A stretch of DNA of 15,439 nt, taken from assembly GCA_001789205.1 (NCBI GenBank), contig MFYT01000017.1, positions 1 to 15,439 of the forward strand, in the 5' to 3' direction. Source of the stretch: Candidatus Raymondbacteria bacterium RIFOXYA2_FULL_49_16. Lineage in GTDB: Bacteria > Fibrobacterota > OXYB2-FULL-49-7 > XYB2-FULL-49-35. The notes under the pieces are model-generated. The model worked only from the letters and a program-made list of their open reading frames with translations, did not search any database and was not told the origin of the DNA. The position numbers and the translations under genes were made by a program. Below are positions 1,206 to 15,271 of the stretch, in pieces. Position 1 is the first letter of the stretch, and the number at the start of each line of letters is the position of its first letter.

Positions 1206-2333
1206 CTACCGCCACCCGCATGCCTCTGCAAGAAGCGCCGAATAATCCACAAAATCCGGCCACGACACATCAGGCGGCACCCCGTGGTCGCACCCGGGAA
1301 TATACCCGCCATCCAGAATTACCGGTTTGATCCGTTCAATCTCCCATCGGATCTCATCCCCGGCCTTTGCCATGCACCGCTTATCCACACCGCCGCGATA
1401 CGCCATGTTCTTCCCGAACTTTTTCCTGAACGCCCGTATATCGCAACCGGCTGCCACCTCAAGAGGATCGCACGCGTTGATTCCGCCCTCTATCCAGACA
1501 GGTATGAGATCCTCAATATACCCATCTGAATCCATTGATACTATCTGACAGCCCGACGCTTTTATTTCTCGTGTCCATCTCTGGTATACGGGCAGCAGGA
1601 ACTCCCGGGTCATGTCGGGCCCGATCATGGGATGGCTTTTATACGCCATGTCTTCGCTAATATGCACTGAATCCAGTTCCACCATGGTGATCAGAGGCTT
1701 CAGTGTCAATGAAATGAAATCTGACCAGAAGCTGATCATTTCCCGTATCCACTCAGGATCGTCGATTAAAAGCATACACAGGCCTTCAAACCCGAGCCAT
1801 TCGCGCAATTGCCAGAATGGACCGTTTATAGGAAGGTCTACGACATAGTCCCTGTTCCGCAACAGCCTGCACCGATCTTCAAAATCAGCGGGGAATCTCC
1901 CTGAAGTCGCGGGATCGTACCGTTTTTTCATCTCCTCCCAGTCGCCGCGCGTCTCCACCGGACATTTGATCCACCTGCGAGTGACAAAGTCCCTTGCCGT
2001 GCGCAGATACGTGGCATCGAACTGGTCGCTGATCTCGACAATGGCGCCCATCCAGTCGCGGACAATATAATGGCCGTGCTTGTGCTCCAAAACCTTTTCC
2101 TCGTATTCCGGCATCATTTTAAAAGAAACCCCGGGATCTGCATACGGAATTTTTGGAAGTTCCGGATCAATGCCGGTCTCTGTACAGACCTGTTCATAAT
2201 AATCGGCATTTTCCGGAAGCCCCTGCGCATGCCATGTCTTGAGCGTTGATTCGCGCGGATGACCGGGCTGAAAGGGTATTTTATCCGGTTTGCCAAAAAG
2301 GAGGGTTTCGTTGAACCGTTCACGCGCATTCAT
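1206..2333 (-). CDS. Uroporphyrinogen decarboxylase (URO-D) superfamily protein
   Basis: A 375-aa cytosolic protein with the URO-D/methyltransferase TIM-barrel pattern. An N-terminal segment 'IPFQPGHPRES' stands where true HemE has its substrate-binding arginine motif. A central 'SMDSDGYIEDLIPVWIEGGIN' stretch leads into 'DPLEVAAGCD', and the C-terminus has 'PGCDHGVPPDVSWPDF'. This arrangement is typical of the large non-heme URO-D-like group that includes corrinoid/coenzyme M methyltransferases and many uncharacterised members, rather than HemE itself. The start has a good ribosome site (AAAGG). It is divergently transcribed from an AraC regulator, with overlapping promoters in the 148-bp gap, so that regulator probably controls it. 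No corrinoid protein gene is adjacent, so the substrate is unknown. Confidence 0.85.
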   Translation of the reverse strand: MNARERFNETLLFGKPDKIPFQPGHPRESTLKTWHAQGLPENADYYEQVCTETGIDPELPKIPYADPGVSFKMMPEYEEKVLEHKHGHYIVRDWMGAIVEISDQFDATYLRTARDFVTRRWIKCPVETRGDWEEMKKRYDPATSGRFPADFEDRCRLLRNRDYVVDLPINGPFWQLREWLGFEGLCMLLIDDPEWIREMISFWSDFISLTLKPLITMVELDSVHISEDMAYKSHPMIGPDMTREFLLPVYQRWTREIKASGCQIVSMDSDGYIEDLIPVWIEGGINACDPLEVAAGCDIRAFRKKFGKNMAYRGGVDKRCMAKAGDEIRWEIERIKPVILDGGYIPGCDHGVPPDVSWPDFVDYSALLAEACGWR

Positions 2334-2392
2334 GGTTGACCTTTCTTTTTATTGATTATTTGTTCCCTGTATATTGAATGTACCTGTTTTCC

Positions 2393-2421
2393 TTGATATT
2401 AATATTATACTCTATTATTTT
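2393..2421 (+). promoter_or_regulatory. Possible promoter of the AraC-family gene
   Basis: TTGATA (2393-2398), a 17-nt spacer, then TATTTT (2416-2421). It overlaps, face to face, the better-matching minus-strand promoter at 2404-2432. Such overlap would make the two divergent genes interfere with each other. The -10 match is weak and the DNA is AT-rich, so chance is possible. Confidence 0.3.
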
Positions 2422-2432
2422 TATTATTACAA
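2404..2432 (-). promoter_or_regulatory. Sigma-70-type promoter for the URO-D-like gene
   Basis: TTGTAA (2432-2427), a 17-nt spacer, then a perfect TATAAT (2409-2404) on the minus strand. The predicted start near 2397 gives a leader of about 64 nt before the ATG at 2333. Confidence 0.5.
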
Positions 2433-2481
2433 GAGGCTGGATGTAGTATTTATTGTGTTTTTGTGCTGTTATTACTGAAAT

Positions 2482-3309
2482 ATGAAGGAATCATCGATCA
2501 ACAGGTTCTGGCAGCGCGCAGGGGGCCCTGCGTGGCCGCTTGATGTCAGGAGCGTAGGCGTTAAAAACGACCTTTTTCCCTTTTCCGCGGAACGGCCATC
2601 AGGCGCTGATTTTTTTATAATCATGTGGACCACTGCCGGCAGGGGGGAATTGAAGGCTGGCGCAACACGCTACATCCTGAAAAAAGAGTATGTGTTTATA
2701 CTGCCTCCAGGTGTTCCGCATTCGTATGGCACTGTTAAACAGGTAAAAAGCTGGGAAAAATGGTGGTTGACAATTGACGGGGCAACAGCGGCCGATTTTA
2801 TGAGGGGTTTGCATTTGAACAGGGTCCTTGTGCGCAGGATCGGCGCTCCGCCTCTTCTGCTTTTCAAGAGACTGGCAACCATGTCAGCGTATCCGGGCGT
2901 CTCCGGCGCAATGGACCGCGCGCACATCGCGCTCCGCATCCTGTACGAGATCTCAGCAAGGGTCGATCAGCGGTATAGAGGAAATCCCGCAGCTAGGTAC
3001 GGAAAAATCGCTGATTGGGTGAATGCCAATATCGACTCGCTGAAGAACGTGGACGCCATGGCCAAAAGGGCCGGCATTACGCGGTCGCATTTTTCGCGTA
3101 CGTTTACCGAATCAATGGGGATAACGCCCAAACAGTTCCTGCTTGAGGCAAAACTGAACAGGGCAAAGGACCTTCTTATGCGCACGCCATTGAAGATCAA
3201 GGAAATCGCCTATGCATCAGGCTGGTGCGACCCGGCGCATTTCTGCCGGCAATTCTATCGTCTGACCGGCTTTTCGCCAACGCAGTACCGCGCCATGTCG
3301 CACATATAG
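2482..3309 (+). CDS. AraC-family transcriptional regulator
   Basis: A 275-aa regulator. Residues about 25-110 form a cupin-like ligand-binding domain (a glycine-rich strand near 'GRGELKAG' and the turn 'LPPGVPHSYG'). Residues about 178-272 form the double helix-turn-helix DNA-binding domain. The first HTH is 'VDAMAKRAGITRSHFSRTF'; the second, 'IKEIAYASGWCDPAHFCRQF', is followed by the classic 'TGFSPTQYR' ending. Cupin-AraC regulators of this kind usually sense a sugar or small carbon compound. It is divergent from the URO-D-like gene, its likely target. The start has no obvious Shine-Dalgarno sequence (the bases before it are GTTATTACTGAAAT), so it may be weakly translated. It is convergent with the sigma-54 activator gene, with only 3 bp between the two stop codons. 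Confidence 0.93.
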   Translation: MKESSINRFWQRAGGPAWPLDVRSVGVKNDLFPFSAERPSGADFFIIMWTTAGRGELKAGATRYILKKEYVFILPPGVPHSYGTVKQVKSWEKWWLTIDGATAADFMRGLHLNRVLVRRIGAPPLLLFKRLATMSAYPGVSGAMDRAHIALRILYEISARVDQRYRGNPAARYGKIADWVNANIDSLKNVDAMAKRAGITRSHFSRTFTESMGITPKQFLLEAKLNRAKDLLMRTPLKIKEIAYASGWCDPAHFCRQFYRLTGFSPTQYRAMSHI

Positions 3310-3312
3310 AGA

Positions 3313-5826
3313 TCATTGGTTTGTTTTTTCAAGCACCTGAAAAAACACGGCCCGTCCTTTTGCCTGTTTCAGTATTTTTCCCTGGTTTAATAATACATCA
3401 AGATATTTCCAGCCAGTGGCCTTTGAGATCTTCATGCGCCTCATGAAATCGTTTATGGTGAACTCTGTCCGTTGAAGCTGTTTGAGCGCTTTTTCCACTC
3501 TGCTTTGCAGGGAGTCCTGCAAGCCGAAAGACGATATGTAGCGTTTGACAGTATTGTACGAGCAGCCGAAGTGGAGCGCTATTTTATGCGGTTTGCCGTA
3601 CAATTCATCATACACCCTCCGGAACGTTTCGCTGTCCCGGTACGACCCCGCGACCGCACGCACAGCGCCAGCCCCCGCTCCTCCGGCAGTCATGGCCCGT
3701 GTACGGACCACAGGCGTCCCGCCTATTGCCATACCCGCTGTTTTTGCCAAGAACGAGGGAAAGTGTTCAGCCGTTAATATGCCCTGGCGGTTGATGATAA
3801 GGGCGTTCTCGATCGCGTTCTTGAGCTCGCGCACATTACCGGGCCAGGCATAGTTCATGAGCGCTGGAAACACGTTGTTGTTTATCGTGGGAATGAGGGT
3901 ATCGTTCTGTTTGGCCAGGGAGACGATGAGATGATTCACAATAGGATATATGTCCATCAGCCGTTCCCGTAGCGGCAGCACCGGAATATGCACGACCTTG
4001 ATCCGGTAATACAGGTCGGCCCTGAATGTGCCCTGCGCGACCGCCTCCTCAAGGTCGGTATTCGTTGCTGAAACAATGCGCACGTCGACTTTCAGCGTTG
4101 TCTTGCCGCCGATCCGCTCGAGCTGGCGGTCCTGCAGGAAGCGGAGCAGTTTGGTCTGGATATCAACGGTCAGGTTGCCTATCTCATCGAGGAACACGGT
4201 GCCGCGGTGGGCAAGTTCGAACTTGCCAATCTGCCTGCGGTCCGCGCCGGTAAAAGCGCCTTTTTCGTACCCGAACAGCTCGCTTTCGATGAGCGTTGGC
4301 GGCAACGACGCGCAATCGATTTTCACAAAGGGCCCCTTGCGGCCGCTTTCCAGATGGATCGCCTTGGCGACAAGGTCCTTGCCCGTGCCTGTCTCGCCGG
4401 TGATCAGGACCGAGGCGCCCGACGATGCCACGGTCTTGATGGTGCTGATGATGTTCTCGATTGCCGGGGAGTTGCCGATGAGACCATGAAAGCCCCGTTC
4501 CGTGTTCGCGAGCCGTATCAGCGCCCGGTCCCGGTCCTTTTTATACACGGCCATGCGTTCCTCAGCCCTGGCAACCTCGCCCAGCTCGCGCATGAGCAGA
4601 AATTTTTTCATCACGTTGATATACAGCCCGGGAACAATCTGCAATTCATACTGGTTGCCCTCGTCGTTCCTGAACCGCACCAGCTTCCGGAATCCCTTCA
4701 ACGCGTCATAATTAAACACACTCGACCGGGTGCGCATCGTGAATGACAGATAGGTCACTTTTCCGGGAGCGCACAGACCGAACCTGTTGAGGGGCGCATG
4801 GTCGCTGTAAAATGGAATGTCATCTATATGGCGCAGGACATCCCTGCCGTTCACGGCAATGGTGATGATCGGACCGGTCTTGACAATAGCGACCTCACGG
4901 GGTCTTTCCTCCAGCTCCTTGCCATAGAGTATGTTGGCGTTCCGTTTCAGGATCGCCCTGTTGTTATTGAAGTTTATCAAGTATCCATTTTCATCGGGCG
5001 AAAGGACCGGGTTATCGATGCCGCATAAAAAAACGCCCCCAAATCCTTCGGAGAAGCTGTATTCTATTTTATAGTCGGTCTGAAAAAAATCAAAAGAATC
5101 CGGGCAGACAAGGTAATTCGTGTCTCCTGTTTTTCCCTGACGTACCAAACGGACGCTATTTTTCTGAATCTCCCATGACGGGTCTTGCGTATGGAAAAAC
5201 TGCTCAAAACCGTCTTTTTGAGAATCGACCTTCAGTCCCCATGGCGCATTATTTTTCGCCTCCAGATCAGAAACATGCGCCAGGAATTCCCTTCTCACCC
5301 TTCCCCATTCCTTAAAATCCTCTTGGACCAGGCATTCGCTCAAATTCGTCCCGCGAAAACGCTTTTCTCCGAAGATGGACATGAGCTTGCGGTGAAACCT
5401 TCTCCCGAAATCCTCCAAATTCAAGCGTTCATCCAGGATCGCAAACAGGTCTTTTTCGTAAAATTGGTGGATGCTTTCCACGGAAAAAGGAAGCAATTCA
5501 ATGGAAAATACTGAAAAATCATCGTGCTTTTGCCCTCGCTTGATCAATGCGTGGATACCCTCCTTCTGCGAGGAATCCACGGGAAAAGCGATAAAACCCG
5601 GCTTGGGAACCATACGGCACCTGATGCCTGTCGCGGTTTCATTAATGACATCAATGATCGATTTGAACGGTTTCCCTTGCAGGTCGCCAAGGACATATCC
5701 CAAAGTCCGGGTGAAATTGTCCGATATCCAGATTATTCTAGAATCATTGTCAACCGCACACAGGGCATTGAAAGAACCATTAAGAAGAGATGTGAACTGA
5801 TTTTCTGTAAATTCCTTGATGGTCAT
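3313..5826 (-). CDS. Sigma-54-dependent transcriptional activator with PAS and lectin-like sensor domains
   Basis: An 837-aa enhancer-binding protein that should hydrolyse ATP to open sigma-54 promoters. A PAS-like domain occupies about residues 8-110 ('LCAVDNDSRIIWISDNFTR'). A beta-rich region at about 210-366, with alternating strands such as 'GGVFLCGIDNP' and 'ITIAVNGRDVLRHI', resembles concanavalin-A/LamG or DUF1080-like sandwiches. The AAA+ domain has Walker A GETGTGKD near 475, GAFTGA near 523, Walker B VFLDEIG near 542 and 'YAWPGNVRELKNAIENA'. The C-terminus has a helix-turn-helix ('HKIALHFGCSYNTVKRYI', about 745-770) and a winged-helix-like segment (about 785-835). No receiver domain is present. 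I chose the ATG at 5826 because AAGAGGTG precedes it; an in-frame upstream start at 5865 lacks this. The gene is divergent from a sigma-54 promoter. The lectin-like call is by eye. Confidence 0.93.
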   Translation of the reverse strand: MTIKEFTENQFTSLLNGSFNALCAVDNDSRIIWISDNFTRTLGYVLGDLQGKPFKSIIDVINETATGIRCRMVPKPGFIAFPVDSSQKEGIHALIKRGQKHDDFSVFSIELLPFSVESIHQFYEKDLFAILDERLNLEDFGRRFHRKLMSIFGEKRFRGTNLSECLVQEDFKEWGRVRREFLAHVSDLEAKNNAPWGLKVDSQKDGFEQFFHTQDPSWEIQKNSVRLVRQGKTGDTNYLVCPDSFDFFQTDYKIEYSFSEGFGGVFLCGIDNPVLSPDENGYLINFNNNRAILKRNANILYGKELEERPREVAIVKTGPIITIAVNGRDVLRHIDDIPFYSDHAPLNRFGLCAPGKVTYLSFTMRTRSSVFNYDALKGFRKLVRFRNDEGNQYELQIVPGLYINVMKKFLLMRELGEVARAEERMAVYKKDRDRALIRLANTERGFHGLIGNSPAIENIISTIKTVASSGASVLITGETGTGKDLVAKAIHLESGRKGPFVKIDCASLPPTLIESELFGYEKGAFTGADRRQIGKFELAHRGTVFLDEIGNLTVDIQTKLLRFLQDRQLERIGGKTTLKVDVRIVSATNTDLEEAVAQGTFRADLYYRIKVVHIPVLPLRERLMDIYPIVNHLIVSLAKQNDTLIPTINNNVFPALMNYAWPGNVRELKNAIENALIINRQGILTAEHFPSFLAKTAGMAIGGTPVVRTRAMTAGGAGAGAVRAVAGSYRDSETFRRVYDELYGKPHKIALHFGCSYNTVKRYISSFGLQDSLQSRVEKALKQLQRTEFTINDFMRRMKISKATGWKYLDVLLNQGKILKQAKGRAVFFQVLEKTNQ

Positions 5827-5863: not shown

Positions 5864-5892
5864 AATATAAATAATAATAGATATAGTGTACA
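5864..5892 (-). promoter_or_regulatory. Possible promoter of the sigma-54 activator gene
   Basis: TGTACA (5892-5887), a 17-nt spacer, then TATATT (5869-5864) on the minus strand, giving a leader of about 30 nt. The -35 hexamer lies within the upstream dyad shared by the two sigma-54 promoters, so activator binding there could repress its own gene. AT-rich DNA makes chance matches likely. Confidence 0.25.
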
Positions 5893-5910
5893 TATTTATA
5901 CGATACGTAC
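5886..5910 (+). promoter_or_regulatory. Candidate upstream activator site, copy A
   Basis: An imperfect dyad at 5888-5910: outer arms GTAC/GTAC and inner TAT/ATA with one mismatched pair between them, centred 80 bp before the -24 element. It aligns with 8414-8438 at exactly the same distance from its own promoter; the best block is ACAT-TTTATA. Position and conservation fit a binding site for the divergent activator, but binding is inferred. Confidence 0.55.
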
Positions 5911-5978
5911 CAATACATTCAGCTATCTGATAATAATAACAACAGCATTACTTATTTAAATTCAAAGTAGTTGTTCTC

Positions 5979-5992
5979 GGTATAGTTTTTGC
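5979..5992 (+). promoter_or_regulatory. Sigma-54 (-24/-12) promoter of the DUF4091 operon
   Basis: GG at 5979-5980, exactly 10 nt, then GC at 5991-5992, with the T-run before GC that is typical of the -12 box (CGGTATAGTTTTTGCA). It is divergent to a sigma-54 activator gene and nearly identical to the element at 8507-8520. The predicted start is near 6004, giving a leader of about 80 nt. Confidence 0.85.
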
Positions 5993-6038
5993 ATATTAAA
6001 CCTATAATGTTATAGATTATAGTACCATAAGTTTTATT

Positions 6039-6110
6039 GTGAAACTTTTTATGAAAGATTTAAAAGCAACTTACAGGAGGGCCAAATGTCCGCATCTAGC
6101 TTTCAGCTGA
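6039..6110 (+). pseudogene. Remnant of a small leader gene related to the 58-aa ORF
   Basis: A GTG-initiated 23-codon frame (MKLFMKDLKATYRRAK...) runs over the start of the DUF4091 gene in another frame. Its opening resembles that of the 58-aa ORF at 8566 (F-[ML]-K-D-L...Y), and the DNA shares TGAAAGATTT at nearly the same distance from the promoter (2524 bp apart, versus 2528 for the promoter pair). Right after it, CTTACAGGAGGGCC matches the region before the LRR gene (CTTAC, TTAA, AGGAGGGCC). It looks like the small gene with its middle deleted. The match is short and there is no ribosome site, so it may not be translated. Confidence 0.4.
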
Positions 6111-7873
6111 CTGCTGTTCACGAGTGGTGTGCCCATGATCCTTTTGGCAAACTTAAGCCTGCAGACGTTTCTGCGGCACTCCTTTCAGTGACCGATAATT
6201 CTGGGACAGTGCGCCTGCGTGCTGCGCGCAATGGGTATGTCTCTTTCCGGATACTGATCCAGGGTACTGGCGAATACAGGCTCAACGCTTCGATAGGCAA
6301 GAATCTGGAGACAGACCTTTTCAAGGCCTGGTATCACCGTATGGCAGATCAAAAAGAGAAGCAGCCGGATTACTGGCCCGATGCGCTTATCCCGGTTCAT
6401 GGCACTGAAGCCAACGGCGCAATTCCCGACCCTGATAACAAAATTAACGGGCAGTCTGTCCAGGAGTATTGGGTAGACCTCTTTGTGCCCCCTGACGCCA
6501 AACCCGGAACCATTACGGGTAAAATAGAGCTCATTACCGGCGGTCAGACGATAAAACTGCCAGTGGCCGTGGAAGTGCTGGCCATGGATATACCCGAAAA
6601 CCCCTGCGTCACGGTTTATCTCAAATCATACGGGTGGGAAAAACTGCGGGAACAATACCCCAGTACCTTCGCACGCACCGGCAAAGGCGCCCGCATGTGG
6701 AAAAATGTCATAGGTCTTTTCCATAACTACCACCGCCTTATCCACGAGCACCGCGCCATATTCCGCAGCCGCGGAGGTTCCCACTCCGGGTCGTTTGATA
6801 TCATCTACAGCCCGCGCGTGGTTGGCAACGGCCGCCAAAAACACCTTGAAGATTGGGAGATGTTCGACCAGCACTTTGGCCCGCTTTTCGACGGAAGCGT
6901 TTTTCTGAAGGCAGCGCCAGGCGCTCCACGGCCCAGACGGCCCGCACTCCCGGTGCAAGGAATGTACGCGCCCATTGGCCCGAACTGGCCCGCCTCCTAT
7001 CTCTGGTGGGGCCAACCTGGCTACGAAGTGGAATTCACCAATTGCGTGGCGGAACTCGACGCGCACCTGCGCGCAAAGGGATGGACCCGGACTCAGATGG
7101 AAATGTTCTTCTTTCACAAAAAGCGCTTCCGCGGCTTTGAGTGGGATGGCGATGAAACCAAGTTCGCCAAGGACGACGACCGCTTCTTGGAGATGGGCCA
7201 GCTCCTAAAAAAGGCCACGGCGAATTCTCCTGTTAAGTGGGTCTTTCGCGCAGACTCCAGCTGGCAGCAGAAATTCCAGTTTGAACGGCTTGCCAACGTG
7301 GTGACCTTCTGGGTACTGGGAGGATTTTGGCGCTGGTATCCTCAGGAAATCCGCCAAATTATTGCCCGTGGCGACACTGTCTGGTGGTATGGCGGCACCC
7401 CACAGATCCAATGGATAAGCAACCAAGTGCTCGAAAGTCTCTACACCACCTGGGCCTGCGGCCTGCATGGCTATAACCACTGGCTGGCCACTGACCCAGG
7501 AAAGGATCCCTGGTTTGCCTGTAATGGGGCCGGTACTGGGATGGTCTATCCCGGCGAGCGTTTTGGCCTGGCAGGTCCCATCCCCTCGACTAGAATGAAA
7601 ATCATGCGTAATGGCATACAGGATATTGATCTTCTAGACCAGGCAGTGCGCGCCTCTGGTCGCATAGATGCTGTTCGTGAAGAACTGGCCCGCGCCATCC
7701 CGCTGCAACTCTGGTCCAAGCCGCCGCGCGCTGCGCTGGAATTGCCTCCAGAGGAATGGGACAGTCGCAAGCTTGGCGCTGAGCACGAGCCTAATGCAAT
7801 CGAACAAAAAACAGCAGACCCGTCGTGGTGGATGGAGATCCGCCAACGGGCCATTCCTGAGGAGGTGCGCTGA
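6086..7873 (+). CDS. DUF4091 / GH123-like glycoside hydrolase-type protein
   Basis: A 595-aa protein. Residues about 1-170 form a beta-sandwich ('QEYWVDLFVPPDAKPGTITGKIEL'), as in other DUF4091/GH123-like proteins. The middle should be a TIM barrel, and residues about 505-525 carry the DUF4091 signature 'MRNGIQDIDLLDQAV'. A D356-E357 pair ('WDGDETKF') is a candidate for the catalytic Asp-Glu, since GH123 uses neighbouring Asp and Glu in substrate-assisted N-acetylhexosaminide cleavage. Many aromatic residues (WGQPGY, GGFWRWYPQE, VWWYGG) suit sugar stacking. Unlike most relatives it has no signal peptide, so it probably acts in the cytosol. The ribosome site AGGAGGG is excellent. It is first in a two-gene operon under the sigma-54 promoter at 5979. 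Exact substrate unknown. Confidence 0.75.
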   Translation: MSASSFQLTAVHEWCAHDPFGKLKPADVSAALLSVTDNSGTVRLRAARNGYVSFRILIQGTGEYRLNASIGKNLETDLFKAWYHRMADQKEKQPDYWPDALIPVHGTEANGAIPDPDNKINGQSVQEYWVDLFVPPDAKPGTITGKIELITGGQTIKLPVAVEVLAMDIPENPCVTVYLKSYGWEKLREQYPSTFARTGKGARMWKNVIGLFHNYHRLIHEHRAIFRSRGGSHSGSFDIIYSPRVVGNGRQKHLEDWEMFDQHFGPLFDGSVFLKAAPGAPRPRRPALPVQGMYAPIGPNWPASYLWWGQPGYEVEFTNCVAELDAHLRAKGWTRTQMEMFFFHKKRFRGFEWDGDETKFAKDDDRFLEMGQLLKKATANSPVKWVFRADSSWQQKFQFERLANVVTFWVLGGFWRWYPQEIRQIIARGDTVWWYGGTPQIQWISNQVLESLYTTWACGLHGYNHWLATDPGKDPWFACNGAGTGMVYPGERFGLAGPIPSTRMKIMRNGIQDIDLLDQAVRASGRIDAVREELARAIPLQLWSKPPRAALELPPEEWDSRKLGAEHEPNAIEQKTADPSWWMEIRQRAIPEEVR

Positions 7874-8388
7874 TGCCTGCCAAATCCAATGCCAAAACCC
7901 GCAGAATGACAAAAGCCCTCCAGGAACTGGCGCGGATAGCCAGTGTCATAGTGGACGGCGAACTCGCCAACAGTATTATCACTGATCAGGCATGCAACCA
8001 TATGGCTAATCCAGATCTCGAATATATCCACCTTTCCGCTGATTACTACGACGTAGAATTTGGCGCTTTTGTTCAAATGAAAAAAACGCTCCTGCGCCTG
8101 CAACGGTTGGTGGACTTCCCCTGTTGCGCGTCACTTTGGGTACGGGTCAGGGGGGCCGACAACCTCATTACCATGGCTGTCCAGAATGGTAACCTGAACC
8201 GATACTGGCAACATGGTGAAGAACGCCGTAATCCCGAGGGAGAAATGGCTGAATGTTTGGCATCTGGCAGGATAATTGTTGCGCCACCAGGACATCCAAC
8301 ACGGACAATCACGGTCCTTACCCCAGTGTTCGACAGTCTGGGAGATGTTGTTGGCATTGTGGAGCTTTCTTCACCAGAACCAATCTAA
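7873..8388 (+). CDS. Hypothetical protein with GAF-like sensory half
   Basis: A 171-aa soluble protein of unknown function. Its start codon overlaps the stop of the DUF4091 gene by one base (TGATG), indicating translational coupling, and GGAGGTG precedes it. The N-terminus is basic (KSNAKTRRMTKALQELARIA) and helical. Residues about 70-168 follow the order of a GAF domain: a strand 'CCASLWVRVRG', a helix 'EGEMAECLASGRIIV', then 'ITVLTPVFDSLGDVVGIVELSS', which matches the 'P(l/v).d..g.vvGv.el' ending of GAF/PAS-like sensors. It has no output domain, so it may sense a ligand and act on its partner or on the activator. The domain call is by eye and could instead be a PAS-like fold. Confidence 0.7.
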   Translation: MPAKSNAKTRRMTKALQELARIASVIVDGELANSIITDQACNHMANPDLEYIHLSADYYDVEFGAFVQMKKTLLRLQRLVDFPCCASLWVRVRGADNLITMAVQNGNLNRYWQHGEERRNPEGEMAECLASGRIIVAPPGHPTRTITVLTPVFDSLGDVVGIVELSSPEPI

Positions 8389-8413
8389 GTATAGTATATC
8401 AACAAAAAAACTA

Positions 8414-8443
8414 ATGCACATGTTTATATAATATATAAGCATG
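8414..8443 (+). promoter_or_regulatory. Candidate upstream activator site, copy B
   Basis: A 25-bp inverted repeat at 8419-8443 with one mismatched pair: CATG-T-TTATATA-A-TATATAA-G-CATG. It is centred 76 bp before the -24 element and aligned to copy A (5886-5910) with identical spacing to the promoter. It lies in the 177-bp gap after the GAF-like gene, where no clear terminator is visible, so some readthrough from operon 1 is possible. Confidence 0.55.
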
Positions 8444-8506
8444 CATTACACCATTAAAGAATAATAATAAAAACGTTTCTTATTTAAATTCAAAGCGCTT
8501 AACTAT

Positions 8507-8520
8507 GGTATGGTTTTTGC
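8507..8520 (+). promoter_or_regulatory. Sigma-54 (-24/-12) promoter of the exported-protein operon
   Basis: GG at 8507-8508, exactly 10 nt, then GC at 8519-8520 (TGGTATGGTTTTTGCA). The predicted start near 8532 leaves a leader of about 34 nt to the 58-aa ORF. It differs from the first promoter at only one of the ten spacer positions. Confidence 0.88.
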
Positions 8521-8565
8521 ATATCAATAGCAGTAAACAAAACTGTTTTCTCAAGGGAGTATTGT

Positions 8566-8742
8566 ATGAATTTTCTGAAAGATTTGATAAACGAATATAA
8601 AACCCTTTATGAGCAGGCAAACCAGGCCAATGATGAAAAAATATATATACAAAAACAGAAAGAACTTGAACTGCTTGGGGAAAAGATAAAATTAATGCAG
8701 ATCCGGGGCAGCCATATCTTGGAAGAAGGCGTTATATTATAA
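8566..8742 (+). CDS. Small coiled-coil-like protein (58 aa), first gene of the operon
   Basis: A 58-codon frame beginning MNFLKDLINEYKTLYEQ and ending in ILEEGVIL, with ribosome site AAGGGAG 6 nt before the ATG. It is rich in Lys, Glu, Gln and spaced Leu/Ile, so it should be largely helical and possibly a short coiled coil; there is no signal peptide. It is the first gene after the sigma-54 promoter, 37 bp before the LRR gene. A shortened relative seems to survive at the same place in the other sigma-54 operon (6039-6110). I do not recognise a family. It could be a small chaperone or adaptor for the exported proteins, or a regulatory leader gene; both are guesses. Confidence 0.6.
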   Translation: MNFLKDLINEYKTLYEQANQANDEKIYIQKQKELELLGEKIKLMQIRGSHILEEGVIL

Positions 8743-8779: not shown

Positions 8780-11137
8780 ATGAAGAACTGCGTACTTGTT
8801 TTTCTGGCGCTTGCATCGCTGGTCTTTGCGCAAAACTATTCCAGCGACTCGCTTATTGTGCAGGCAATACTCGATTCAAACGGGTGGAACAGCTTCACTG
8901 TTGAGGAAGTGAGTAACGTGAGCGGCAATAGAATCGTCGAGCTCAAACTCAGAGGAGAGACCATCTACTATTCAATACCCACCTACTCGGTTTGGACCGG
9001 CTGGTTCATGTATCGTTCCATTACCTGGCTGCCTGCGGAAATCGGCAACCTGACAGCCCTTGAAAAACTCGATCTTGGCGGCCACCAGCTGACCAGCCTT
9101 CCTTCCACAATGGGTAACCTGGCCAATTTGAAATATCTCTACCTCGATCCGAAACACTACTGGGACAATACTAAACAGGCCCATATCAACGGCGCCGGTG
9201 ATATCTATTACGGCGACAGCTTGCGCCATAAAACCGTTTCTTTTTGGAGCGACAGCCTGCTGAATACCTACGCGGCAAACGGCAGAATAAACGACTTTTC
9301 CAAATACCGGATTGGATCAAGGCTACCCGCGCTCCCCGCCACTTTTGCAAACCTTGCCAATTTGATTGAATTGGACATAAGCAACAATCCCCTTGACTCC
9401 ATACCCTCATATATAGGCAATCGTACGGGTATGATAAGATTCTGGGCAGCCGGGATTGGCCTGTCACAATTCCCCCCTCAGGTGCTCAACCTGATAAACC
9501 TGGAACTTCTGAACCTGGCAAACAATTACATTACATCTGTGCCATCTGGAATCAGCGCATTGACCATGCTGAAATCACTCAATCTGAGTAACAATGAAAT
9601 CACAAGCCTTCCGGAATCCATGGGCAGCCTTACGGCATTGTCAGACCTTCTCGACGTTTCGGTAAACGAGCTTGCCTCACTGCCCCAGGCAATAGGCAAT
9701 TTCACCTTGCTCAAACGGCTCAACATAGACCACAACATGATTACCGCGCTGCCAGCAACCATTGGCAATTGCGCAAGCCTAACGCGGTTCGACGCTGAAG
9801 TAAACAGCATTGCCAGCCTGCCATCAACCATTGGCGGTTTGGTTATGCTCGACACCCTCTTTCTTGAGTGGAACGATCTTGCCAGCCTTCCCCCCGGGAT
9901 CGGCGGCCTTGTAAAAATCATGAACCTCCAGTTAATGCACAACAATCTTGCCAGTCTGCCGGCTGAATTATGCAACCTGGCCGCACTTGCCGAACTCTAC
10001 ATCGATAACAACCAGCTGACCGCACTTCCCGACTCGTTCGGCAGACTCTCGGGCCTTACCATTCTCGAAGCGACCAACAACAAACTGACCGACATTCCCG
10101 CCTCATGCGCCCGCCTCGGAAACATGTCGCGGGTGTATCTTTCCGACAATCTTCTCACCTCTCTGTCATCAAGAATCGGCTCGCGCACCTTCGACCTCCA
10201 GCTCAACAACAACTTACTGACCTCCCTGCCGCCTGATATCAATGCAAACCGGATCTCCGTGCGCAACAACAAACTGACCAGTCTTCCCGGGTCCATCATG
10301 CGGTCCATCCTGAACTCTCTCGATGTTTCCTTCAACGAACTGACCGCGCTCCCCGATTCAATCTCCCTTGCCGTCAATTTGTCGGGAATCCATTGCGCGG
10401 CGAACAACATAACTAGTCTTCCCGCTCCATTTCTGAATCTTGTCAAAGTAGTAACCATGGATTTTCACCACAACAACTTGACCGTCCTGCCCGACAGCAT
10501 CGGATACAAAATGACCGGCTTACGGTTTGTCGACGTGCGCGGAAATAGTCTCTCCACGATCCCCGCCTCGCTTGGAAAACTGTCGAACACGTACCTGACC
10601 ATATTCGCTGACTCAAACCAGATCAGCTGGCTCCCTGATTCCCTGATTGCCTGGCGGCCCAGCACCAGGTTTTATCTCAATTTCAATCACTTGACACTCG
10701 CAGGGTTACCGTCCAATTTATTATCAATTACCTCCGGATTCGAGATCCAGTACAACAGGATTTGCGGCGCCACTGGGGCCATCAATACTTTGCTGAATGG
10801 AAAATCACCGAACTACGCTGCAACCCAGGATTGCAGCAACACCAGCGTGGCAGACGCGTCATGTGTAAAAGTACTGGTCAATTCGCTTTCGCAGAACACG
10901 CCAAACCCATTCAACCCATCCACAAGCATCAATTTCTCCCTCACATCGCCCAGCCACGTGACGCTGCAGGTCTACGATATCAAAGGCGGGCTGGTGACCT
11001 CGCTGGTCAATACCCAGCAACAGGCTGGATCCCATTCAGTGACTTGGGATGCCCGAGGCCTGGGTTCAGGCGTCTACTACTACCGGCTTGTTGCCGGTGA
11101 TTTCAAGGCAATGAAAAAATGCATCGTAATCAAATAA
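8780..11137 (+). CDS. Exported leucine-rich-repeat protein with C-terminal NPFNP sorting domain
   Basis: A 785-aa secreted protein. The signal peptide MKNCVLVFLALASLVFA probably ends at A17/Q18. An N-terminal cap (about 20-75) is followed by about 21 leucine-rich repeats of roughly 23 residues ('N.LTSLP..IGNL..L..L.L'), spanning about 85-660. An insert of about 60 residues, rich in aromatic residues, interrupts repeats 1 and 2 (about 120-180). Residues about 703-785 form the FlgD-Ig/type A sorting domain: 'NTPNPFNPSTSINFSL', 'VYDIKGGLVTSL', 'WDARGLGSGVYYYRL'. LRR proteins of this type bind proteins or glycans at the surface. A strong ribosome site (AAAGGAGGG) precedes the start. It is followed after 14 nt by the hydrolase gene, so the two are in one operon. 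The ligand is unknown. Confidence 0.92.
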   Translation: MKNCVLVFLALASLVFAQNYSSDSLIVQAILDSNGWNSFTVEEVSNVSGNRIVELKLRGETIYYSIPTYSVWTGWFMYRSITWLPAEIGNLTALEKLDLGGHQLTSLPSTMGNLANLKYLYLDPKHYWDNTKQAHINGAGDIYYGDSLRHKTVSFWSDSLLNTYAANGRINDFSKYRIGSRLPALPATFANLANLIELDISNNPLDSIPSYIGNRTGMIRFWAAGIGLSQFPPQVLNLINLELLNLANNYITSVPSGISALTMLKSLNLSNNEITSLPESMGSLTALSDLLDVSVNELASLPQAIGNFTLLKRLNIDHNMITALPATIGNCASLTRFDAEVNSIASLPSTIGGLVMLDTLFLEWNDLASLPPGIGGLVKIMNLQLMHNNLASLPAELCNLAALAELYIDNNQLTALPDSFGRLSGLTILEATNNKLTDIPASCARLGNMSRVYLSDNLLTSLSSRIGSRTFDLQLNNNLLTSLPPDINANRISVRNNKLTSLPGSIMRSILNSLDVSFNELTALPDSISLAVNLSGIHCAANNITSLPAPFLNLVKVVTMDFHHNNLTVLPDSIGYKMTGLRFVDVRGNSLSTIPASLGKLSNTYLTIFADSNQISWLPDSLIAWRPSTRFYLNFNHLTLAGLPSNLLSITSGFEIQYNRICGATGAINTLLNGKSPNYAATQDCSNTSVADASCVKVLVNSLSQNTPNPFNPSTSINFSLTSPSHVTLQVYDIKGGLVTSLVNTQQQAGSHSVTWDARGLGSGVYYYRLVAGDFKAMKKCIVIK

Positions 11138-11151
11138 CCATGAGGTCTACC

Positions 11152-12918
11152 ATGAATACAATGAAAACTCCTGTCATCGTCAGCTTGTTCGTTGTTCTTT
11201 TTGTTGTTGGAATATCGCTGGTTCCGGTGCAGGCTGAAAACCTGACCATTCCCCAAACGCTCATAACCAAGATGGACACCGCGATTCCCCAAAACCTTTC
11301 AGACACCCTCTGGAAGGAATTGGCGTACGAATATACGCCCAGAATAAACTTGCTCGACAGCAACGATTTTTTTGTGCAAAAATACCTTCCTCGACTGCAG
11401 GAAAAGGTCCTGCTTATCTACCAATCCTTCAACAATGTTGATAGAATGAGTTCGTTTCTACACCATTTCCGGGCGGCAAACAATCTTTCATCGTATTTGG
11501 AATTATTTGTGAGTGCCCTGGAAAAAGGTGTTGATCCGGCGCTCTCCCTTCCCGGGTCCTACATCGGCACTGCGTTTATTTCACCAACAGGTAATTATGT
11601 GATCCATTACCAGTTCGCCGTACCCGGTTCCTATACGCCATCACAAGCCTTTCCGGTCATGGGCGGCCTGCAATGTGAACCAGACCCAGCGGCAGTGGAC
11701 CGTTCGTCATATATTTTTGTGTGGGATGCGACTCAAGACCCGAAAGAGATCTTCATGGACATTGCCAAGGACCTGCATGTGGACCCATTTGGCACATACA
11801 TTGTTTCACATTCAGACGGCGCTCTCGGTGGCATACAAAACGCCGCCCGGGCCCCCCACAACTTCGCCGCCTATGTACCCCTCTCTTCCGGCATCAGGGA
11901 GCCCATCAGATACGATACCTGGCAATACATCCGGTATCTGCAGAACATCCCTATTCTTCTCATGTGCGGAACAACAGACCCCTTTATAGCGAACAACCAG
12001 GCTGTGTATCAGGAATTATCAACCGCAGGCGGCATTGTTGAATGGCGTTCATGGGTCGGATATCATGAACAGAGCGTCCTGGTTGAAGAGGAAAAATACC
12101 AGATCATGACCGATTTTTTCGACAACTACCGTCTCTACCCCTATCCCCAGACAGTGACCCACCTTATCGACAACATTAAATATACGCGCGCCTTCTGGGT
12201 AAATGGGCTCCTAAACAGAAACTATTCTACATTCGGCAAGGACCTCTACATGCTCGGTGTTTCATTCAAGATCACCGCGCACAAGGCCGTGAACACCATT
12301 GAAATAGAGCATGCTGACGACCATATATCCGGATTTGATTTCTTGCTGAACGATTCCCTTGTCTCCAATATCAGCCAGCCGGTAAAAGTGGTGCGGGGCA
12401 GTGACACGCTTTTCAACGCCGTGGTTCCCGTGGGCGGTAAAGTCACAGTGCACCTGTACGATTCAAGCTCCATTCCCGCGGCATTGCCTCCCCAGCACCA
12501 GGCAGCAGGGTATTTTTCAAACATGGAGACCACGCTGCTGTGGGAAGAGCTCAGTGCGATCGAACAGGACTATTTTGGCGTAACCACGCCCATGCCGTTC
12601 GAGTTGCCCGCCCCTCAAACCAGCATCGAAGAGAATAGCGCCAATGAACACCAGATGTTTGCGCTTGCAGCAGGTCCTAACCCATTCAACCCGGTAACTA
12701 CTATTACCGTGAACAATGGCGGGGCTGTTGCCATGTCACTCAAGATTTATAACATTAAAGGAGAGATGGTCAAAGACTTGACGTCTTCCTTCAGCCATGC
12801 CGGATCCTCCGTGCATTCGTGCGTATGGGATGCCGGGAAGATGTCATCGGGGACCTACATTGTCAGGGCAGTCAAAGGGAAACAGGCCATAACCAAACAA
12901 GTTACACTGCTTAAATAA
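11152..12918 (+). CDS. Exported alpha/beta-hydrolase-like (esterase/peptidase-type) protein with NPFNP sorting domain
   Basis: A 588-aa secreted protein. I chose the ATG at 11152 because GAGGT lies 6 nt before it; the frame is open from 11119 but that start overlaps the LRR gene without a site. The signal peptide ends around VPVQA/EN (residue 28). Residues about 120-330 look like an alpha/beta hydrolase with a full triad in order: S221 in 'SHSDGALGG', D276 in 'CGTTDPF' and H305 in 'GYHEQ'. The spacing is typical of PHB-depolymerase or prolyl-oligopeptidase-like esterases. The nucleophile elbow is S-x-S-x-G instead of G-x-S-x-G. A beta-rich region (about 350-460) follows, then the sorting domain from about 505 ('GPNPFNPVTTITV', 'YNIKGEMVKDL', 'WDAGKMSSGTYIVRA'). 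Substrate unknown; ester or acyl groups of polysaccharide are a reasonable guess. Confidence 0.85.
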   Translation: MNTMKTPVIVSLFVVLFVVGISLVPVQAENLTIPQTLITKMDTAIPQNLSDTLWKELAYEYTPRINLLDSNDFFVQKYLPRLQEKVLLIYQSFNNVDRMSSFLHHFRAANNLSSYLELFVSALEKGVDPALSLPGSYIGTAFISPTGNYVIHYQFAVPGSYTPSQAFPVMGGLQCEPDPAAVDRSSYIFVWDATQDPKEIFMDIAKDLHVDPFGTYIVSHSDGALGGIQNAARAPHNFAAYVPLSSGIREPIRYDTWQYIRYLQNIPILLMCGTTDPFIANNQAVYQELSTAGGIVEWRSWVGYHEQSVLVEEEKYQIMTDFFDNYRLYPYPQTVTHLIDNIKYTRAFWVNGLLNRNYSTFGKDLYMLGVSFKITAHKAVNTIEIEHADDHISGFDFLLNDSLVSNISQPVKVVRGSDTLFNAVVPVGGKVTVHLYDSSSIPAALPPQHQAAGYFSNMETTLLWEELSAIEQDYFGVTTPMPFELPAPQTSIEENSANEHQMFALAAGPNPFNPVTTITVNNGGAVAMSLKIYNIKGEMVKDLTSSFSHAGSSVHSCVWDAGKMSSGTYIVRAVKGKQAITKQVTLLK

Positions 12919-12952
12919 TGATTGTTTTTTATCCATGACATCCGGAGGTACT

Positions 12953-15271
12953 ATGCGACTACTTGTTTTGCTTGCCGCTCTCTTGCTTGTCAGTCAGACA
13001 CCTGGGCGGTTGCGTAATCCCTGGATCGTTGTTGATCATGACCTGAATTTCTGGAGCATTACAAAATCAACGCAGACCCACGACCACTTCCCGGATTTTC
13101 CCGCTTTTGACCGGCAAAATCCGGATCAATTCTTAAAGACCTGGCATGATTCCATCTGCGTAGGAGAGGCAAGATGCAATAAATATGACGGGTTTTTAAG
13201 CGATTGGGGCGGCGATTGTCTATATGCAAGAAAAAACGAATACTTTGCCCACGACGGCAAAAACTATAAAGAGGCGCCATTTCCGGAAGGGCTGCAATAT
13301 GCTCACATATATGATCCCATGAAATTTTTCAACTGTTTCGGATATGGATACTGCATGTTTATTGGCGAGGTTTCCTGTAATTATTATACCATGCTAGGAT
13401 ATGAGGCACGGCAGTGGTCATTAAAATGGAACGCGCACCGGGTATGCGATGTATATTATAATGATGGATGGCACTGGTTTGACTGGGACGAGGGCTGGTG
13501 GACCGCCAATGCCTCGGGCAATACCTATGGACTCGACTTTGCCACCACCAATACCACCGCCTATATGGCCGCGCCCCAGCGCTCCGTGTATATTGATTCA
13601 GTAGGATGGGGTACCTTTATCCAAGGCGCGCTGGCACGGCCCGAATATCTGTTTTTCGGGTCCATGCGGGGCGGCGGAGCGGACATGAGCTTTGCTTTGC
13701 GCATAGGCGAAAAGATAGAGCGATTCTACAACCCGCTGGACAATACCTATTTTCATCCAAATACGGATATGGACATGACCAGGACCCCGAAAGCATGCGG
13801 CAATTCCCGGATCACCTATGAGCCCACCCTTGGCGACGTATACGCCGATTTCCTTGACGGTATTTATGAACAATCAAACGCAACCCTGGTAGCGGATGGC
13901 GTTACCCTGGACAACGGCTCTGTTACCTGGGCCATACGGTCGCCCTATGTAATCTATAGCTCAAATGTCTCAATGACCAGCACTGGTTCTTTAACAACCC
14001 AGGTGTCGTATGATCTGGGTGTCACCTGGGCGGACTATACTGATTCGCTCCATGCGCAGCAGAGGTATGATTATCTGCTAAAGGTTTCGGGGACCGGGAA
14101 GATAACCGCGCTTAAAGTGGTCACCATTGGACAACTCAACCCCGGGGCGCTGCCAACACTCAGACAAGGAACAAATAACTGTAGGCTGTACCTGTACGAC
14201 AATGATGAGACCCTTACGTTGCTTCCTGATTGGCGTACCAGTGCGGGGTTTAACAAACATGTGGTTGACGTATCGGGATTTACCTGGCTGGGAACCGATA
14301 ATATGCGGAATGGCGGTAAAACAAACAGCAGCGACAGCGGTGATTATATTACCATGGAACTGACTGGCCCGGCAACAGGGTCTGTTGTGTCCGCCAGCGG
14401 CTATTTTACCATCAACCGCCTAAGACGCCAGGAGAACTTTATACCTTATGCCACAAATACGCTTGATATTCTTACCGGGAATAGCATGCATAATCTGGCG
14501 GTAACTACAACCGCACCTTCGCCCATGCATACAGCGCTTGCCACAATGCAGAGCACGCTCACGGAATATGGTTTTGGCCACTGGGCGCAAGCGATAAATT
14601 TTGAGCGCGACCCGATTTCCACTCCGGGAAACAAGGGGTATATTCAGTGCAAAGGACAGGAAATTCAGCTTACCCAGTTCCGTGAATGCGAGCTGTATAT
14701 GCACTATTATATAAACCACCTTGACCAGGATTACCTGAACGATCTTATTATAAAACATATCTATAATTCGAACGAGACAACGATTGACAGTGTGATATCA
14801 TATGTGTCGGCGGAGGAAATCGCGTCATCTAACGGCATCATCGACTATGAAGTAACCTATCCAACGGCTTTTGTCAAAGACCCAAGTCACTGTATTGTTA
14901 TGGAGGTCGCGGGCGGTGTATTACTTACAGACCTGGAGCAGAACCCCCTTGTATCCCAAATCAAAGAGTTGGGGAATGATAAAAATGATGGTGTATGCGT
15001 CATGACAAACATTCCCAATCCCTTTAATCCATTAACAGTGATCAGTTTTTCCATAAAACAAAAGAAACTTGAAAACATGACGCTCGCGGTATATGACACA
15101 AAGGGCGCATTAGTCAAGGTCCTTACACAAGGGCTTGTTTCCAGCGGGAATATGTCTGTGTCCTGGGATGGACGGAACATGAGGGGTGCGGACGCGGCCA
15201 GCGGTACCTATATGGTAAGACTAAAATATGGAAATACGTTTTATACGCATAGGATAGTATTGATACGATAG
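12953..15271 (+). CDS. Exported transglutaminase-like protein with NPFNP sorting domain
   Basis: A 772-aa secreted protein. The start at 12953 is set by GGAGGT 3 nt before it and gives a clean signal peptide (MRLLVLLAALLLVSQT). Residues about 120-185 show a transglutaminase-like core: C134 in 'GYGYCMFIGEVSCNYYTMLG', H162 in 'WNAHRVCDVYYNDGWHWFD' and D177, in the order and spacing of the Cys-His-Asp triad, with the usual '.LGYEAR' between. Such folds act as crosslinkers, peptidases or amidases. The middle (about 250-670) is beta-rich and unassigned ('VSMTSTGSLTTQVSYDLG' suggests a sugar- or matrix-binding sandwich). The sorting domain starts near 681 ('IPNPFNPLTVISFSI', 'VYDTKGALVKVL', 'WDGRNMRG', 'SGTYMVRL'). 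It lies 34 nt after the hydrolase gene, in the same operon. The fold call is by motif; the activity is unknown. Confidence 0.82.
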   Translation: MRLLVLLAALLLVSQTPGRLRNPWIVVDHDLNFWSITKSTQTHDHFPDFPAFDRQNPDQFLKTWHDSICVGEARCNKYDGFLSDWGGDCLYARKNEYFAHDGKNYKEAPFPEGLQYAHIYDPMKFFNCFGYGYCMFIGEVSCNYYTMLGYEARQWSLKWNAHRVCDVYYNDGWHWFDWDEGWWTANASGNTYGLDFATTNTTAYMAAPQRSVYIDSVGWGTFIQGALARPEYLFFGSMRGGGADMSFALRIGEKIERFYNPLDNTYFHPNTDMDMTRTPKACGNSRITYEPTLGDVYADFLDGIYEQSNATLVADGVTLDNGSVTWAIRSPYVIYSSNVSMTSTGSLTTQVSYDLGVTWADYTDSLHAQQRYDYLLKVSGTGKITALKVVTIGQLNPGALPTLRQGTNNCRLYLYDNDETLTLLPDWRTSAGFNKHVVDVSGFTWLGTDNMRNGGKTNSSDSGDYITMELTGPATGSVVSASGYFTINRLRRQENFIPYATNTLDILTGNSMHNLAVTTTAPSPMHTALATMQSTLTEYGFGHWAQAINFERDPISTPGNKGYIQCKGQEIQLTQFRECELYMHYYINHLDQDYLNDLIIKHIYNSNETTIDSVISYVSAEEIASSNGIIDYEVTYPTAFVKDPSHCIVMEVAGGVLLTDLEQNPLVSQIKELGNDKNDGVCVMTNIPNPFNPLTVISFSIKQKKLENMTLAVYDTKGALVKVLTQGLVSSGNMSVSWDGRNMRGADAASGTYMVRLKYGNTFYTHRIVLIR

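Follow-up and report, generated by a model that had tools for sequence, protein, structure and literature searches.

Two collinear control regions next to a sigma-54 activator: a probable private regulon for a glycosidase-like operon and an exported-protein operon in a Candidatus Raymondbacteria genome

Two control regions in register

The locus described here raises the question why two control regions, in front of two different operons, resemble each other over more than a hundred base pairs without a single gap, and whether one activator serves both. The window that was analyzed, 15,439 bases long, comprises an entire contig (C17). The original prediction that positions 5886-6000 and 8414-8528 align without gaps at an offset of 2528 was borne out, with 79 of 115 positions identical. 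The best ungapped segment (5873-5999) scored 47, against a maximum of 18 among 200 pairs of dinucleotide-shuffled sequences. On the basis of this alignment, of the gap-free conservation with two copies on another contig (C108) and of the genome model search described below, we delimited control region 1 (CR1) at 5873..6000 and control region 2 (CR2) at 8401..8528, both on the plus strand. As was also claimed, the AATAATAA block lies in register in the two regions (5932-5939 on the plus strand in CR1 and 8460-8467 in CR2) and is present in all four copies, and the 17-mer CTTATTTAAATTCAAAG is identical in both (5951-5967 and 8479-8495, plus strand). The 16-base core of this 17-mer is found nowhere else in the 5.43-Mb genome at fewer than two mismatches. 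We consider it probable that CR1 and CR2 each consist of a sigma-54 promoter preceded by activator sites, that the product of the divergent gene at 3313-5826 switches them both, and that they constitute a private two-operon regulon.

The near-identical -24/-12 elements that had been proposed are present and in register, with the GG at 5979 and 8507 and the GC at 5991 and 8519 (GG-N10-GC spanning 5979-5992 and 8507-8520). The element of CR1, TCGGTATAGTTTTTGCA, occupies 5977..5993 on the plus strand with a predicted start near 6003, and that of CR2, ATGGTATGGTTTTTGCA, occupies 8505..8521 on the same strand with a predicted start near 8531. Both match the sigma-54 consensus imperfectly, at 10 of 13 positions, and because 17 sites in the window attain this score when both strands are counted, the promoter call was made from conservation and position and not from the match alone. 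The string TTTTTGCA is conserved in the four copies, although AG replaces GG at -24 in the two on C108. The genome encodes a single RpoN, and we infer that both promoters depend on Sigma-54.

The presumed operator

The original prediction also held that the two regions share an upstream dyad, and this part did not stand, as a palindrome beyond chance was found in CR2 only. There, the inverted repeat TAATGCACATGTTTATAT/ATATATAAGCATGCATTA (8412..8448, plus strand), which is the presumed operator, was equalled by 2 of 200 shuffled sequences. The inverted repeats of CR1 and of the two C108 copies did not exceed chance (133, 191 and 61 of 200 shuffles, respectively, were as good). What CR1 and CR2 do have in common in this area is the left half ARTGYAYATRTTTWTA plus AATAATA; the presumed activator-binding region of CR1 (5884..5920, plus strand) was delimited by the conserved left half TAGTGTACATATTTATA, its palindrome being at chance level. 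In all four copies the left half of the operator region is invariant, and so are the blocks AATAATA, CTT.TTTAAA.TCA and TTTTTGCA. In the proposed mechanism the activator would occupy a site between about -100 and -75 (numbered from the -12 GC), and the AT-rich DNA between this site and the promoter, constant in length, would form a loop that lets it contact the RpoN-polymerase.

The conserved 17-mer, which in CR1 spans roughly -53 to -37 relative to the predicted start, is a weak candidate for an IHF-like bend site, and an HU/IHF protein bound there could perhaps bend the spacer. Its place is similar to that of the IHF region of PpspA (-42 to -63; PMC6710252). The match of the 17-mer to the IHF site WATCAANNNNTTR is limited to 6-7 of 9 positions, which is not above shuffled sequences, and neither of the two HU/IHF-family proteins in the genome reaches the IHF or the HU cut-off.

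The activator

The gene at 3313..5826 on the minus strand is divergent to CR1, as claimed, and encodes a protein of 837 residues counted from the ATG at 5826. Pfam searches and the alignment of paralogues identify it as a sigma-54 activator, with a PAS domain, a sensor region at around residues 120-440, an AAA+ domain with GAFTGA (Sigma54_activat, E 2e-68), a lid and two C-terminal HTH segments. The GAFTGA and the Walker A/B motifs are invariant among the paralogues. The sensor region beyond the PAS domain had no match in PDB or Pfam, and no relative of the sensor half was recovered from 166 other genomes of the phylum, from viral contigs or from a wider collection of genome contigs. A lectin-like middle domain was considered for the sensor and discarded as unsupported, the single-sequence structure having a pLDDT of only 35. 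Both promoters are proposed to open on a common signal, which would be sensed by the PAS/sensor half. Two further genes beyond the activator (1206-3309), one uroporphyrinogen-decarboxylase-like and the other coding for a divergent AraC-type regulator with a cupin domain, are outside the regulon, judging from the sequence.

The putative target operons

The output of CR1 would be a pair of cytosolic proteins, the first of which (6086..7873, plus strand, 595 aa) is a GH123/DUF4091-like glycosidase without a signal peptide. Its N-domain and its DUF4091 barrel both align to PDB entry 8k2f (E 9e-9), which represents a remote similarity; the Pfam match to the GH123 N-domain was below the cut-off, and a DE pair in WDGDET, a candidate for the catalytic Asp-Glu pair of GH123, falls outside the aligned segments. 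GH123/DUF4091 beta-N-acetylgalactosaminidases have been described (PMC11087588), and the 595-aa protein differs from these in the lack of a signal peptide and in the remoteness of the similarity. The start of the second gene (7873..8388, plus strand), which encodes a 171-aa protein matching no known family, overlaps the stop of the first. A short frame, MKDLKATYRRAKCPHLAFS, is present before the glycosidase start (window 6050-6110); possibly it is a remnant of the small gene described next, the similarity being too weak to claim this.

The output of CR2 would be a small helical protein and then exported type IX cargo. The first gene of this operon (8566..8742, plus strand), absent from the original account, specifies a 58-aa protein predicted to form a helical hairpin. 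It is followed on the same strand by genes for an exported LRR protein (8780..11137, 785 aa; Pfam), which is 76% identical to its paralogue on C108 and carries a type IX sorting tail, and for two further exported proteins that were assigned by domain search, one of 599 aa with a type IX sorting tail (11119..12918) and one of 778 aa with a FlgD_ig/type IX tail (12935..15271). The window ends with the contig, so the operon may run on. The assignment as type IX cargo is based on a signal peptide (judged by eye), a Por_Secre_tail or FlgD_ig domain and the presence of SprA, the type IX translocon, which is encoded elsewhere in the same genome. The proposed division between a carbohydrate enzyme without signal peptide and an operon of exported proteins was correct, the former being GH123-like.

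Genome-wide distribution of the control regions

To make an inventory of related control regions, a sequence-only model was built from CR1, CR2 and the paralogous region on C108, and the whole genome was scanned. Exactly four strong copies were recovered (E 9e-27 to 2e-16), while the next match had an E-value of 0.04. The two C108 copies were found independently of the pair described originally, one of them (C108:7985-8099, E 2e-16, gap-free) via the model itself. The four copies form two pairs, each adjoining one of two related sigma-54 activators that are about 64-65% identical. Together with the GAFTGA activator and the RpoN of the genome, this two-pair result supports the proposal of one activator with a compact, local regulon of two promoters. 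Additional copies ahead of other exported or sugar-acting genes had been named as possible support for a regulon; the scan returned none of these, and since copies occur only at the two activator loci the regulon is to be seen as local.

The activator on C108 is the closest paralogue of that in the window and is likewise divergent to a control region, which is followed by a 64-aa relative of the small gene, a 785-aa LRR protein and a 599-aa protein. This is the gene order of the window without the glycosidase operon. Between the first C108 control region and either of CR1 and CR2 the alignment needs no gap and stays in the same register through the -12 GC; the fourth copy is followed by a degenerate small gene with an internal deletion (C108 8132-8230, MKNKKDTIIQLDALLEEHKTIH...) and by another LRR operon. 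The alignment of all four is gap-free from about -106 to -12, and ungapped similarity extends over 115-135 bp in pairwise comparisons. Over the segment from -105 to +4, the window pair is identical at 76 of 110 positions and the C108 pair at 89 of 110, compared with 64-66 of 110 between the loci. The higher identity within a locus fits an activator that keeps its own pair of sites, and a duplication within each locus would explain it as well. We propose that one control region was duplicated and that the glycosidase operon came to be placed between the copies, in which case C108 would represent the uninterrupted order.

These distributions bear on three other readings. Being repeated and AT-rich, the 115-bp unit might be a small repeat, mobile or structural, whose position upstream of genes is accidental. 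We regard this as highly improbable, considering that there are only four copies, all sense-oriented just before a gene at an activator locus, that no terminal repeats were noted and the ends coincide with the operator and the -12 element, and that no copies remote from genes and flanked by target-site duplications were found in this genome.

It is also unlikely that CR1 and CR2 are sigma-54 promoters under different or several activators, acting for example in trans, with the divergent gene as a mere neighbour. The genome contains about 30 matches to the sigma-54 AAA+ domain, and the proteins concerned could act on these promoters; moreover, CR1 has no clear palindrome. Against this, the types of control region track the activator loci one to one. 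The window and C108 activators have near-identical putative recognition helices (CSYNT[VI]KRY and SK.TGWKYL), whereas paralogues with different recognition helices have unrelated control regions, and the activator locus on contig C23 has a different operator.

Finally, the likeness might reflect a recent duplication of the exported-protein operon with its leader, the spacing being unchanged for lack of time and not because of a special constraint or a common activator. CR2 and both C108 copies indeed precede homologous LRR operons, and CR2 does not exceed the adjacent small gene in identity to C108 (~60% against 64%). However, CR1, which precedes an unrelated gene, matches C108 no less closely than CR2 does (80/132 and 74/132), and the similarity ends at the promoter. 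In view of this, and of the substitution counts given below, we consider such a duplication rather unlikely and retain the local regulon under one activator as the preferred reading.

Is the spacing fixed?

According to the original prediction, strict spacing would be a mark of the system. Within the four window and C108 copies this was confirmed, as 109 columns contain no indel against at least 83 substitutions, while the flanks do differ in length: the distance from the activator ATG to the control region is 59 versus 132 bp, and that from the -12 element to the start codon is 95, 47, 37 and 36 bp in the four copies.

The C23 locus provides a comparison. Its activator is about 30% identical to that of the window, and its operator, TATTGATANNNTATCAWT, occurs at only two sites genome-wide, both at this locus, with a third, degenerate copy between them. 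One activator and three control regions, each before exported-protein genes, are found there within 7.5 kb (C23:99688-107200). The distances from the operator centres to the -12 GC are 112.5, 107.5 and 86.5 bp, and two of the regions (104/134 identical) are separated by three small gaps downstream of the operator, so that the stretch from there to the promoter differs by 5 bp net. An initial reading in which the two C23 operators stood two helical turns apart was rejected, as the exact count is 26 bp. At the C23 rate of around one indel per ten substitutions, about eight indels would be predicted for the window and C108 quartet, and the observation of none has a P of about 0.0002 if indels are Poisson distributed. 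There thus appears to be a constraint on spacing at the window and C108 loci but not across the whole family: C23 keeps its operator and changes the distance, so fixed spacing is not a family rule and strict spacing fails as a system-wide mark. Both situations are known from published sigma-54 promoters: the upstream site of PpspA tolerates a range of at least 40 bp (PMC6710252), whereas the CbrB subsites lie on one helix face and IHF is placed between these and the promoter (PMC6296734).

Families of activators and small helical proteins

The activator of the window has six further long paralogues in the genome, 65 to 32% identical (tblastn), one of which is cut by a contig end, so that the same family counts at least seven members. 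In addition, C74:1-2339 begins inside an activator gene, and C84:5351-5893 and C65:14249-14797 end with near-identical activator C-termini. These pieces are probably two nearly identical copies broken by the assembly, which would bring the family to at least eight. No second control region was found on C21, C74 or C67, or for a second activator on C23.

A profile built from five small genes recovered six copies in the genome (C108, C21, C17, C74, C67 and C23; E 6e-28 to 5e-11); the phylum's 166 other genomes yielded none. A further profile match on C19 (E 0.006) was dismissed as implausible as a gene. The products, which make up a new helical family, are 53-70 aa long, and one intact copy is present at each of 6 of the 7 activator loci, 18 to 47 bp past a sigma-54-like GC element and directly upstream of an exported-protein gene. 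On C21 (48381) and C67 (6077) the ATG of the small gene is only 18-20 bp past the -12 GC, so that the mRNA would be almost leaderless. The single-sequence prediction for the 58-aa protein is a two-helix hairpin with a pLDDT of about 95 in the helices. The family has no relative of note in Pfam or NCBIfam and showed no PspA/IM30 similarity in these databases. A mirror-tree comparison of activators and small proteins gave a weak correlation that was not significant (r 0.33, p 0.10).

Relation to known systems and significance

Several features of the locus have precedents. The PspF/pspA system of E. coli resembles it in having a divergent activator, an upstream operator and a helical protein encoded by the first target gene, although Pfam and NCBIfam revealed no likeness of the 58-aa protein to PspA. 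PspF itself is not known to have a sensor domain. PspA inhibits PspF, and pspA is a PspF target (PMC6710252); by analogy, one may speculate that the activator is subject to feedback from the small protein.

A divergent activator combined with a sigma-54 promoter and an AT-rich site has been described before (PMC4641369), and so has the control of the cell exterior by Sigma-54 (PMC3162934). Examples of the former are DVU2275 and DVU2956 of Desulfovibrio vulgaris (PMC4641369), which share with our locus a divergent one-component activator, an AT-rich site upstream of a sigma-54 promoter and a local regulon of cell-exterior genes. Here, in contrast, one genome contains the whole set in at least seven paralogous versions with operators of their own; 3 of the loci have two or three promoters, and 6 of the 7 have a small helical gene. 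PrsK-PrsR, which with RpoN controls PEP-CTERM exported proteins with C-terminal sorting tails (PMC9850573), similarly ties a sigma-54 activator to such genes; PrsR is, however, part of a two-component system, whereas the activator described here is a one-component, PAS-type protein associated with type IX tails. In the open-licence literature we found no account of such a multiplication of the entire unit within a single genome, of the private operators, of the small helical gene or of an activator whose sensor half lacks any relative in the collections that were searched. Our comparisons are among the paralogues of one genome and, beyond it, with genomes related at the level of the phylum.

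Most likely, the occurrence of at least seven sets of activator and switch beside exported-protein genes means that a known type of control has been multiplied into private local circuits. A tentative extension, which we hold to be possible, is that the sets form a lineage-specific family of modules, each comprising a sigma-54 activator with an orphan sensor, one to three nearby promoters that carry its private operator, exported type IX cargo and a cognate hairpin protein of 53-70 aa that would set or damp the output of the activator. Such modules would act as insulated switches for surface proteins, with operators diverging together with their activators. Private circuits of this type would illustrate the way in which a bacterium can derive several insulated switches for secreted or surface proteins from one sigma-54 switch. 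The diverged activator-operator pairs within one genome would constitute a natural test set for the co-change of specificity, and with fixed spacing in the window and on C108 and variable spacing on C23, the question when enhancer phasing matters would become directly testable. The small helical family, finally, would be a new candidate partner of sigma-54 activators.
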